From a virus: a stretch of DNA of 34,228 nt. Within the stretch, counting starts at the first letter, position 1. Every line of letters starts with the position of its first letter. Both the position numbers and the translations under genes were made by a program. Shown piece after piece: positions 1 through 16,487 of the stretch. The stretch is from IMG/VR virus record IMGVR_UViG_3300035045_000025, positions 1 through 34,228 of that record. One strand, written 5' to 3'. The notes beneath the pieces are model-generated. The model did not search any database. It saw only the letters and a list, made by a program, of their open reading frames with translations, and had not been told where the DNA came from.

Positions 1-569
1 ATCTGACGACCGCTAAAGGAGAAGGGAGAGGCGAATAGATAAACTCAAGTCCTCATAGCTCTACCGAGTCTGAGGAGTTTATAGGTGTACATCAACGCCC
101 ATCAAAACTCTTAAACTTTGTAAACTTGATAAGGACTTGTTTAGTTTGTCTGTTTAGCGTAGGCAAAGAGAAGATTTAAGTAGACATGGGTGGACTCTTT
201 TAGCACTTCAAAGTTAATCAAAGGCGAGTAGGAACTTTGAAGTGCTAAAATGGGGTGGTCACATTTTACTAGAACTTGTTAGTTTATATGGTCTTGGGAA
301 GGACTCCCAAGTTCTAGGGGGAGGCAGGAGACCACCCCAGTCCACCCATGTATCTATAGCATACTCATACAAAATCTAGCAGTTTCTCCGTCAACCAGAT
401 TTGCCCGTAAGTAGTTTACACTAACTTCAAAGGGGCTAGTTATTTTTAATCGGTATGGATAGTTTTTGGGTGGGTGTTTTTGAGGTAAGTAGAACTACTT
501 AGTTGCCCTCAATAATGGCTATATGCACCCGGGGGGAGCACTAAAGTTATTATAGTGTTGGATTTTGAT
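1..569. ncRNA. Gene-free, highly structured region (candidate large ncRNA or DNA structural element)
   Basis: About 570 bases with no convincing reading frame and a run of nested inverted repeats that are GC-rich compared with the AT-rich genes nearby. In order I see a hairpin at 41-80, a hairpin at 113-147 enclosed by a 4-bp pair (95-98 with 157-160), a perfect three-way junction at 184-351, a long closing stem at 354-462, and a hairpin at 480-512. The elements follow one another without conflict, as in a multi-domain RNA. The arms are perfectly complementary, so the strand cannot be decided from G-U pairs, and a DNA role (packaging site or origin) is also possible. The left end may continue outside the window. 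I do not recognise a known RNA family, and no tRNA or intron core is visible. Confidence 0.5.
184..351. repeat. Perfect three-way-junction inverted repeats
   Basis: Three perfect stems meet with almost no unpaired bases. P1 is 13 bp (184-196 with 339-351). P2 is 18 bp (198-215 with 233-250, 17-nt loop). P3 is 9 bp (252-260 with 330-338). The junction has a single base between P1 and P2 (197), a single base between P2 and P3 (251), and none between P3 and P1. Inside P3, P4 is 10 bp (269-278 with 308-317), and a further hairpin P5 (293-299 with 305-311) competes with P4 for bases 308-311. These pairings are read directly from the sequence. The function is unknown. Confidence 0.85.
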
Positions 570-590
570 TTTGTCAAGAGGGTTGACAAA
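570..590. promoter_or_regulatory. Operator-like dyad overlapping the -35 box
   Basis: Two 8-bp arms, TTTGTCAA (570-577) and TTGACAAA (583-590), are perfect inverted repeats separated by five bases. The right arm contains the -35 hexamer of the promoter described next. A repressor dimer binding here would block polymerase. That role is inferred from the geometry only, and no repressor gene is visible in the window. Confidence 0.45.
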
Positions 591-611
591 TTTATTTCCG
601 AAGTATATACT
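583..611 (+). promoter_or_regulatory. Sigma70-type promoter for the packaging/structural genes
   Basis: A perfect -35 box TTGACA (583-588) and a -10 box TATACT (606-611, five of six consensus bases) are separated by exactly 17 bases. Transcription would be expected to start about seven bases after the -10 box, at 617-619, which is the ATG at 618. The message would then be leaderless or nearly so. The match is far better than the average AT-rich stretch here, but it has not been tested. Confidence 0.6.
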
Positions 612-617
612 AAGCCT

Positions 618-1052
618 ATGGCAATGTTACCAACTCAGTCTAATCAGACCCAAAGAAAGCTTACAGAAAAGCAGCAATCCTTTTTGGAACACCTTGTTGA
701 AACGCAAGGAGATGCTAAAAAGGCTGCTGAGTTAGCAGGTTATACAAGTCATTATCATCATGTGGTTAAGACCCTCAAGAATGAAATACTTGAACTAACT
801 CAGGAAATCTTGGCAAACTCTGCACCTAAAGCAGCATTTAAGCTTGTCGAGATTATGGAGTCTAATAGACCTATAGTACAAGCTAATAATAAACTATCAG
901 CAGCTCAAACGTTGTTGGATAGGGTTGGAGTTAGTAAAATAGATAAGTTAGACGTTAATCACAACTTAAACAGTGGTATCTTTGTCATGCCTGATAAAGC
1001 CCCACTGGATTTACCAGAGGAAGATTATGAAGATATTTCTGACAGAGATTGA
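618..1052 (+). CDS. terS: Terminase small subunit (probable)
   Basis: A protein of 144 aa if it starts at the ATG at 618. The N-terminal half carries the pattern of phage small terminases that recognise DNA through a helix-turn-helix: LTEKQQSFLEHLVETQGD, then KKAAELAGYTS and a following helix. The C-terminal half has AAQTLLDRVGVSK, also usual in this family. The protein would select viral concatemer DNA and hand it to the large subunit encoded 2 kb downstream. A GTG at 555 would add 21 residues. I prefer 618 because the promoter boxes at 583-611 lie inside that extension and no ribosome site precedes 555. There is no clear ribosome site before 618 either, consistent with a leaderless start. 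ATG 624 is a third option. Confidence 0.75.
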   Translation: MAMLPTQSNQTQRKLTEKQQSFLEHLVETQGDAKKAAELAGYTSHYHHVVKTLKNEILELTQEILANSAPKAAFKLVEIMESNRPIVQANNKLSAAQTLLDRVGVSKIDKLDVNHNLNSGIFVMPDKAPLDLPEEDYEDISDRD

Positions 1053-13346: not shown

Positions 13347-16300
13347 ATGGCACAAACATATACAAGACAGAGCTCATTTGCAGATGGAGATACTATAACT
13401 GCTGCTTTGTTTAATGATGAATATAACCAGTTAGTAAATGCTTTTGCATACTCTTCAAGTAGTGCAAGTTCTACTGGACACCGACACGATGGTACTGCTG
13501 CTCAAGGTGGTAATATATTTAAAATTGGTGATTTAGACTTTTTAAATAAAATAGAAGTTGATAGTTCTAATAATAGATGGGGATTTTATGTAGAAGTATC
13601 TGCTGCTGCTGTAGAACAAATTAGAATACAAGATGGTGCTATTGTTCCTGTTACTGACAGTGATATAGATTTAGGAACAACTTCATTACGTTTTAAAGAT
13701 ACTTTTACTGACTCAATAACTACTACAGGTAATGTTGATGTTGGAGGTAATTTAACAGTCACAGGTACTACAACTTTTAATGGTGGTACAATTACTATGG
13801 GTGATGCTGCAGATGATAATGTAGTTTTTGGTGCAGATGTTAACTCAAATATTATTCCTAATACAGACAATACATACGACTTAGGAAGTTCTTCTCAAGA
13901 GTGGAAAGATTTATATGTTGATGGTGTAGCTTATTTAGATGGTATTAATTTTAATGGTACAGCAATTACTTCAACTGCTGCTGAACTTAACATTCTTGAT
14001 GGGGTAACAAGTACTGCTGCAGAACTTAATATTTTAGATGGAGTTACAAGTACAACTGCTGAACTTAATATTTTAGATGGAGTTACTTCTACTACTGCTG
14101 AGTTAAATATACTTGATGGTGTAACAGCTACAACAGCAGAATTAAATATACTTGATGGTGTTACATCAACTGCAGCAGAACTTAACATTCTTGATGGTGT
14201 TACTTCAACTGCAGCAGAACTTAACATTCTTGATGGGGTAACTGCAAATGCATCTGAACTAAACATTCTTGATGGAGTTACTTCAACTACTGCAGAATTA
14301 AATATTTTAGATGGTGTTACTGCAACTACAACTGAATTGAATTTACTTGATGGTGTTACATCTACTACTGCAGAATTAAATATTCTTGACGGAGTTACCA
14401 GTACTGCTACAGAACTAAATTTACTTGACGGTGTTACTGCAACTACAACTGAATTAAACTATGTTGATGTAGCTACAGCAGGAACTGTAGAAGCTTCTAA
14501 AGCTATTGTAGTTGATAGTAATAAAGATTTTACTGGTGGTAGAAATATTACTATTACAGGTGAACTCGATGCAGCTACATTAGATATTAGTGGTGATGCA
14601 GATATAGATGGAACACTTGAAGCTGATGCTATAACAATTAATGGAGTTACTTTAGCAGAAACTATTTCTGATACTGTAGGAGCTATGGTAACAAGTAATA
14701 CTGAAACTGGTATTGCCGTTACTTATGACGACAGTGACAATACTTTAGACTTTGTAATTGGCACACTTAACCAAGATACTACAGGTAATGCAGCTACAGC
14801 TACAGCATTAGAAACAGCTAGAACAATACATGGAGTTTCTTTTGATGGTACAGCTAATATAGATTTAACAGAAGTTGTACAAGATACTGTAGGAGCTATG
14901 TTTAGTTCAAATACTGAAACAGGTATTACTGCAACATATCAAGATAGTGATGGTACTATTGATTTAACAGTGACAGGTGCAGCAGTTACTAATATTGCTG
15001 ATGCTGATGGCGATACTAAAGTTCAAGTAGAAGAAAGTTCTGACGAAGATACAATACGTTTTGATACTGCTGGTACTGAACGTATGGTAATTACTTCTGG
15101 AGGAGATGTTTCTATAGGTCCGAACGGTTCTAATCCTTTTGGGATAAGTTATACAGGAACAGACTTTGCAGTAAGCGAAGCATCGGGAACTGCTAGTATT
15201 CAATTAGACGGTGGTAATGCAGCAAGAATGGATTTTGGTGTAGGTGGAACTGCATTATTTAGAATATACAATGACACCTCAAACTACACTGAATTTAAGA
15301 GAACAACTGACCATCCAATTATTTTTAATGTAAATAATGCAGAAACTGCAAGATTTTTAAGCACAGAATTAAAACTTGCCTCTGGTAAAAAACTTGTTGG
15401 TGGTGGCTCAAGTGTAGATTTTACAATTCAATCAGAACACAGAACTGAAATCATAGGAGCTAGTAAAGGAACTGTTATATTAAAAGACCAAGGAACTGCT
15501 TATGCTTTGTTTGAAAGACCTACAAGCACAAACGATTTTGATATACAAAATCCTATTTCAGACGGAGATATAACTTTTGTTGGAAATGATGGTGGTAGCA
15601 CAATAACAGCTCTTACTCTTGATATGTCTGATGCTGGAAGGGCTATGTTTAATGGCTCTATTGATATTGGTGGTGGTAATATTACAAGAACTGGAGATTT
15701 AACTTTAGATGGTTCTGGAGATTTAATTCTAGATGCAGGTGGCGATAATATAAAATTTACTGATTCTGGAACAGAAATAGGACAAATTGATATGGGTTCT
15801 CAGAACCTGACATTTAGGTCGCAAGTTGATGATAAAGATATAATATTCAGAGGTCAAGATGGTACTTCAGAAATTGTAGCTCTTACGCTAGATATGTCAG
15901 AAGCTGGTAAAGCCATTTTTAATGGAGATATAGCAAATGCTTCTGGAGATATGACTATTGATGTTGCAGGGGATATTATCCTTGATTCTGATGGCTCAAG
16001 TATAAGGTTTAAAGATGGGGGTACATTAAATAGTCGTCTGGGATTAGATAGTGCAGGTCTTATTGTAACAGTAGAAGGTGCAGATAAAGATTTTTTTATA
16101 AATGGAGATGATGGCGGTTCAGCGATTACAGCACTTAGGGTAGATATGTCAGATGCTGGTGCATTAATTTGTAATGGTAATGTTACAGCTTTTGGTAGTC
16201 CTTCTGATATAAGATTAAAAGAAAATATTGAAGTTATTCCTGATGCTCTTGATAAAGTAAAACAATTAAAAGGAGTCACTTTTAATTACAAAAAAGATGG

Positions 16301-16487
16301 AAATAAAAGCACAGGACTAATAGCACAAGACTTAGAAAAAGTATTACCTGAAGTAGTTTATGAAACTTCTGATATAGATAATGATGAAGAAAAACACTTA
16401 GCTGTTCGTTATGGGAATACAGTAGGTTTATTAGTTGAGGCTATTAAAGAATTAGAAGCTAGAGTAAAAGAACTGGAGAATAAATAA
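13347..16487 (+). CDS. Tail fibre with ELNILDGV repeats and S74 chaperone
   Basis: A 1046-aa host-recognition fibre. The first 60 residues (DGDTITAALFNDEYNQLVNAF, then TGHRHDGTAAQGG with an HxH pair) form the probable tail-attachment part. Residues 208-376 are thirteen 13-residue repeats. Long beta-helical or triple-stranded shaft sequence follows, with GDADIDGTLEADAITINGVT and recurrent ITALTLDMSDAG-type segments. The C-terminus is a Peptidase_S74 intramolecular chaperone starting SDIRLKENIEV at Ser953, with the partner Lys958 five residues on. In this family the chaperone trimerises the fibre and then cuts itself off before the Ser. Intact catalytic residues suggest normal maturation. Confidence 0.9.
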   Translation: MAQTYTRQSSFADGDTITAALFNDEYNQLVNAFAYSSSSASSTGHRHDGTAAQGGNIFKIGDLDFLNKIEVDSSNNRWGFYVEVSAAAVEQIRIQDGAIVPVTDSDIDLGTTSLRFKDTFTDSITTTGNVDVGGNLTVTGTTTFNGGTITMGDAADDNVVFGADVNSNIIPNTDNTYDLGSSSQEWKDLYVDGVAYLDGINFNGTAITSTAAELNILDGVTSTAAELNILDGVTSTTAELNILDGVTSTTAELNILDGVTATTAELNILDGVTSTAAELNILDGVTSTAAELNILDGVTANASELNILDGVTSTTAELNILDGVTATTTELNLLDGVTSTTAELNILDGVTSTATELNLLDGVTATTTELNYVDVATAGTVEASKAIVVDSNKDFTGGRNITITGELDAATLDISGDADIDGTLEADAITINGVTLAETISDTVGAMVTSNTETGIAVTYDDSDNTLDFVIGTLNQDTTGNAATATALETARTIHGVSFDGTANIDLTEVVQDTVGAMFSSNTETGITATYQDSDGTIDLTVTGAAVTNIADADGDTKVQVEESSDEDTIRFDTAGTERMVITSGGDVSIGPNGSNPFGISYTGTDFAVSEASGTASIQLDGGNAARMDFGVGGTALFRIYNDTSNYTEFKRTTDHPIIFNVNNAETARFLSTELKLASGKKLVGGGSSVDFTIQSEHRTEIIGASKGTVILKDQGTAYALFERPTSTNDFDIQNPISDGDITFVGNDGGSTITALTLDMSDAGRAMFNGSIDIGGGNITRTGDLTLDGSGDLILDAGGDNIKFTDSGTEIGQIDMGSQNLTFRSQVDDKDIIFRGQDGTSEIVALTLDMSEAGKAIFNGDIANASGDMTIDVAGDIILDSDGSSIRFKDGGTLNSRLGLDSAGLIVTVEGADKDFFINGDDGGSAITALRVDMSDAGALICNGNVTAFGSPSDIRLKENIEVIPDALDKVKQLKGVTFNYKKDGNKSTGLIAQDLEKVLPEVVYETSDIDNDEEKHLAVRYGNTVGLLVEAIKELEARVKELENK
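13968..14474 (+). repeat. Thirteen 39-bp coding repeats in the fibre gene
   Basis: Thirteen tandem units encode T-S/A-T-x-x-ELNILDGV, the last one degenerate (ELNYVDVA). The protein sequence is nearly constant, while the DNA differs at many synonymous sites between most units. Units six and seven differ at only a few bases. This is a protein-level repeat maintained by selection rather than fresh replication slippage. Confidence 0.95.

Follow-up and report, generated by a model that had tools for sequence, protein, structure and literature searches.

A three-way junction without a single mismatch lies in a gene-free region beside the terminase genes of the viral DNA analyzed here (IMG/VR record IMGVR_UViG_3300035045_000025, a stretch of 34,228 nucleotides, hereafter the window). 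The question raised by this locus is whether the junction represents a large phage ncRNA, serves as a packaging signal or is an element of replication, the three roles considered in a preliminary description of the sequence. The structure is real and unusual, and it looks likelier to belong to a replication or early-gene switch than to a new RNA family.

The junction and its genomic setting

The junction at 184-351 was recovered exactly where it had been placed and far above chance, with stems of 13, 18 and 9 bp and linkers of 1 nt (197), 1 nt (251) and 0 nt, as described earlier. Stem P1 pairs 184-196 with 339-351, the P2 hairpin (198-250) pairs 198-215 with 233-250 as 18 perfect bp around a loop of 17 nt, and P3 pairs 252-260 with 330-338. 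The 5' arms of P1 and P3 are nearby inverted copies of the outer part of a conserved element and of GACCACCCC in its core, respectively. The minimum free energy of 150-400, folded as RNA, was -88.5 kcal/mol on the plus strand (z = -5.0) and -86.7 kcal/mol on the minus strand (z = -6.9); the fold is thus equally strong on both strands, and none of 200 shuffled sequences folded as well. The stems had been described as GC-rich against the AT-rich genome, which holds for P1 and P3 only, P2 being ~28% GC. Within P3, an inner arm (269-317) consists of a 10-bp stem (269-278/308-317) and a 7-bp hairpin (293-299/305-311) that overlap, so that the two exclusive states proposed for it can be drawn in the window; in relatives the 10-bp stem is not kept, with 91.7% of cells paired, four pairs broken and the inner arm decayed in lineages L015 and L018.

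The absence of a named RNA family with this shape was borne out by a cmscan search of the junction against Rfam, which returned nothing at the gathering threshold and only chance-level matches in a lax scan, with no covariance-model match to GOLLD, IMES, phi29 pRNA or any other Rfam family. The only Rfam match in 12 related loci was a glutamine riboswitch (RF01739) at L029:4316-4431 (E 9.5e-8).

The genome in the window is of the HMO-2011 type (pelagiphage-like), and its TerL is 65-67% identical to those of Pelagibacter phages HTVC115P, HTVC103P and HTVC104P. These phages are relatives of HMO-2011, and HMO-2011-type phages are a dominant and widespread marine viral group (PMC9038755). The junction lies in the divergent intergenic region between early and late genes; in HTVC115P, the element separates early genes running in one direction from terS, terL and the structural genes running in the other. 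To the right of the element in the window, two predicted promoters stand back to back, a leftward sigma70 promoter at 549-577 (minus strand; TTGACA-17-TATAAT, 12/12) that almost all lineages share in perfect or near-perfect form, and a rightward one at 583-611 (plus strand; TTGACA-17-TATACT, 11/12) that would serve terS and the late genes, both functions being read from sequence. The terS gene (620-1052, plus strand) likely begins at ATG 620; the listed 165-aa ORF starts earlier, at GTG 555, ahead of the predicted promoter. Relatives of terS were found in 223 viral stretches.

Several further observations were made in this region and beyond it. A conserved initially transcribed sequence, AACTTTAGTGCCCCCCGGGT, directly follows the leftward promoter in most lineages (window 530-577). 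In HTVC115P (L163), a terminator-like hairpin with a T-run was recognized by eye soon after the leftward promoter, upstream of terS at ~54.3-54.5 kb, which suggests a short leftward RNA in that isolate. Window positions 40-180 and the leaders of relatives carry degenerate ~9-nt tandem repeats of AGTCT/AAGNCTT-like units at a spacing of 9, and AGTCT pairs at this spacing stand out in the leader (13 pairs among 78 sites). Elsewhere, the window encodes a tail-fibre-like protein with many tandem copies of the motif LDGVTSTAAELNI (13347-16487).

Conservation of the two halves of the junction

Collection of 160 related loci by TerS and TerL yielded 55 distinct lineages with the element; as these share ancestry, the counts given here are not independent. 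The 3' strand of the junction, consisting of the core GGCAGGAGACCA, a pyrimidine tract and TATATCTATAGCAT, is conserved in sequence in nearly all of them. We refer to it as the right copy of the element (315-351), in which the core occupies 323-334 and is accompanied by the C-rich tract and the 3' arms of P3 and P1 (330-351). Alignment of the lineages also revealed an AT block, TGTATCTATAGCATACTCATACAAAAT (349-375), conserved in nearly all lineages, close matches to which are essentially single copy in 12 genomes that were searched. In most lineages this block is followed by an inverted repeat of the type TTAACCAG...CTAGTTTAC; in the window it was located by alignment and profile as TCAACCAGAT...TAGTTTACA (391-420), and in relatives, including the roseophages CRP-1 and CRP-13, it reads GTTAACCA...TGGTTTAC. 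A local hairpin within the right copy (GGGGTA-GGCAGGAGACCA-TACCCC) was considered and rejected as a general feature: it forms more pairs than slid controls but is broken in many lineages, among which its G and C runs are exchanged.

Blast searches with the region and with the consensus element gave no match in phage records, so a profile was needed to find the element there. The profile matched the window at 316-421 (1.6e-25), HTVC115P (3e-6), CRP-1 (E 0.0012) and HTVC103P (0.006), and the matches in HTVC104P, HTVC033P and HMO-2011, which fell below the inclusion threshold, were judged by position and by eye.

The positions of these matches bear on the suggestion that the junction is a packaging signal, that is, a pac site read by the small terminase. 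In the pelagiphage clade the element is found immediately ahead of terS, contigs pass freely through the site as would fit circularly permuted genomes, and HMO-2011 carries a P22-type coat annotation. In CRP-1, however, the element (53.4-53.5 kb) lies in the divergent region 4.6 kb from terS (48.5-48.8 kb), which means that it follows the divergent region and not terS and which weakens any pac site linked to that gene; HMO-2011 shows the same separation through a weak sub-threshold match at 53.6 kb and a likely terS counterpart at ~45 kb. No fixed ends were found at the site, and a cos or terminal-repeat site was ruled out by contig ends that do not cluster at the element. The packaging proposal thus fared poorly, and we regard a pac function as very improbable.

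Conservation of the 5' half is of a different kind. Among the 52 of 55 lineages with enough upstream sequence for the comparison, a nearby complementary arm was detected against swapped genomes in ~14 and was absent in about 38, the 5' half of the junction being replaced by unrelated sequence in most lineages. Even the close relatives L012 and L016, in which the 3' strand is identical to that of the window, have no near 5' arm, and in L012 an inverted copy lies 926 bp to the left. Replacement by unrelated sequence had been named in the preliminary description as an argument against a conserved RNA; it has occurred in the 5' half and not in the 3' half.

Where the near arms are present, pairing is kept. 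Within the lineage of the window, P1 and P3 are almost invariant and 4 of the 18 P2 pairs are changed on both sides with none broken, the four double changes separating two haplotypes and thus possibly reflecting one or few events. P1 has been replaced compensatorily in the L005-type lineage. The part of the ncRNA proposal that stands is this retention of pairing, since perfect P2 pairing with free change of sequence is also what is expected of a structured RNA. The part that does not stand is a three-way-junction RNA conserved throughout the group, for which the near arm is missing in too many lineages and wobble changes favor neither RNA strand. The junction is one lineage's own version of a short control element that is itself conserved.

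The main rival to a DNA-level function, possible but on balance unlikely, is that the region forms the structured 5' leader of the leftward early transcript or a separate ncRNA. Transcription would begin just left of 549 on the minus strand and run through the right copy together with the hairpins; once folded, the leader would control early transcription by antitermination or processing, or act as an RNA of its own. The consensus leftward promoter that almost all lineages have to the right of the element, the long leader ahead of the first early gene (ORF A), the excess of folding in the leader and the compensatory changes in P2 all fit such an RNA, and the lack of an Rfam family and of a near arm in most lineages speak against it.

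Strand bias offers a further comparison, because selection on an RNA helix should make one-sided changes lean to G-U on one strand. Mismatches in near pairs comprised 5 G-U on the plus strand, 7 G-U on the minus strand and 24 transversions, and those in pairs with the far copy described below comprised 2, 5 and 34, respectively; without a strand bias in G-U, they do not favor RNA over DNA. The folding excess was likewise similar on both strands, with z<-3 in 14/47 and 13/47 cases compared to 2 and 1 in the terS control. The lack of bias in wobble and in folding counts against the leader and, with such small counts, points weakly to DNA.

A mirrored copy beyond the early cassette

A search of each lineage with the reverse complement of its own right copy located, in most of them, an inverted copy lying 0.9-1.4 kb further left. 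The match of each far copy to the right copy of the same genome is the strongest new result of this study: own far-copy scores summed to 871, compared to 689 +/- 18 after swapping among genomes (permutation p 5e-5), and controls with direct orientation, reversed arms and neighboring search windows were flat for the far copy. Lineage-specific changes in the flanks are matched in the partner, as in L131 (CCCTACCCCC), L113 (GTGTCC), L025 (GGTGG), L115 and L134, and by eye the swapped G and C runs are also matched between right and far copies. In the lineage of the window itself, the mirror copy lies only ~60-150 bp away and the perfect junction results. The mirrored copy was not detected in six isolates outside the subclade of the window (HTVC115P, HTVC103P, HTVC104P, CRP-1, CRP-13 and HMO-2011), and the pairing is therefore not universal.

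The two copies enclose a pair of small leftward genes, A (~60 aa) and B (~90-140 aa), for which Pfam and PHROGs searches gave no convincing family match; in L078 they span about -1192 to -726, counted from the core, with equivalents elsewhere. The far copy stands just beyond this two-gene early cassette. Genes A and B are on the opposite strand in L024 and L028, as is gene A in L013, and the lineage of the window has two plus-strand ORFs weakly similar to B (1.8e-5) and A (0.015, in a four-sequence search). These opposite-facing cassettes, including that of the window's lineage, have no far copy. The far copy passed the score cut in 19/25 lineages with a leftward cassette versus 0/6 others (p 0.001, uncorrected for ancestry).

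The restriction of the far copy to leftward cassettes also fits a role linked to transcription or to the boundaries of the cassette. For the leader RNA it is a favorable point, set against the position of the far copy past an apparent minus-strand terminator in the lineages inspected by eye, where little transcription would be expected. A cassette-boundary role would mean that the inverted copies delimit an exchangeable or invertible early-gene cassette and are kept alike by recombination. The copies do bracket ORFs A and B, the pair occurs in both orientations (in the lineage of the window by weak similarity), and the segment differs between close relatives with colinear flanks, as between L029 and L024, which are colinear on both sides of A-B. 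The opposite-facing cassettes without a far copy are nevertheless not the same DNA turned around, no lineage compared showed the same DNA in both orientations between matching repeats, and phages without a left copy still have a conserved right copy. We therefore consider the cassette-boundary role doubtful.

Proposed function of the mirrored pair and comparison with known systems

The surroundings of the far copy look origin-like, in agreement with the replication role that had been proposed among others. The window starts inside the region and itself has no DnaA boxes, and the observations on AT-rich DNA, DnaA boxes and repeats come from the left flanks of its relatives. AT-only DNA abuts the left copy, and perfect DnaA boxes (TTATCCACA) are enriched ~10-fold in the left flank, with 29 in 32.8 kb vs 22 in 257 kb; they form same-orientation arrays there, and several lineages lack the boxes. 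Such arrays were observed ~1.4-1.6 kb left of the element in L078, L038, L041, L048, L005, L188 and others, and they are a candidate origin for these phages. In the nearer relatives of the window, arrays of AAAGGTACA replace the DnaA boxes, and other short repeats occur elsewhere. Clusters of AAAGGTACA/TGTACCTTT and CGCCCTCAA repeats were seen ~1.1-1.7 kb left in L172, L182, L183 and L171. The change in sign of GC skew at ~30 kb coincides with a change in gene direction, so the skew is no test of an origin.

Our preferred interpretation, with a probability of roughly 0.4, is that the junction is the right half of an inverted-repeat pair that acts as DNA in a putative replication origin or early control region. 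The right and mirrored copies would be recognized in DNA form as mirror-image partners, either by forming hairpins when the DNA is single-stranded or by offering one replication or control protein two sites in inverted orientation. Such a pair could, for example, load priming machinery in opposite directions or loop the region, and P2 would be a hairpin serving as spacer, in which pairing and not sequence is maintained; the choice of mirrored priming or protein sites as the mechanism is what we infer. A long shot by comparison is that the leftward early transcript, which includes the right-copy sequence, pairs with the left copy next to the AT-rich and repeat-rich DNA and forms an R-loop that primes the opposite fork. 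Both DNA sites would then co-vary without wobble bias, as observed, and one RNA would prime replication in two directions.

None of the papers searched described a replication origin or an early-control site in HMO-2011-type phages. The co-varying mirrored pair beside origin-like arrays provides a defined target for locating both, and the junction in the window is a naturally occurring form of it with the two copies brought close together.

Among known structured RNAs, the phi29 pRNA is a three-way-junction RNA of DNA packaging. The junction resembles it in shape, in roughly similar size and in lying near packaging genes, but it comes from an unrelated phage group, has no Rfam match and belongs to an element untied from terS in CRP-1. 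Like large ncRNAs of phage and marine origin such as GOLLD and IMES, it has structured stems that are GC-rich within the AT-rich DNA of a marine phage; it differs in lacking a covariance-model match and in a 5' half that is not conserved.

Among DNA elements, the ssi sites of RSF1010 are close to an origin that has repeats and AT-rich DNA. The ssiA/ssiB pair of this plasmid is the nearest analogue, sharing some of its defining features with the pair described here: the arrangement as a mirrored pair with one site per strand is found for the right and far copies, in the subclade of the window only. The RSF1010 pair consists of single-strand initiation sites for the RepB' primase, one on each strand (PMC4434180). 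Its sites differ in having a defined local hairpin read by a primase of the archaeo-eukaryotic type, whereas a local hairpin is unsupported in the core here and the HMO-2011 annotation lists a Toprim_N primase. Phage and plasmid origins built on DnaA boxes or iterons are similar in their same-orientation TTATCCACA arrays, short repeats and AT-rich stretch, to which the phages studied here add a co-varying inverted-repeat pair whose halves stand ~1 kb from each other and flank two small genes.
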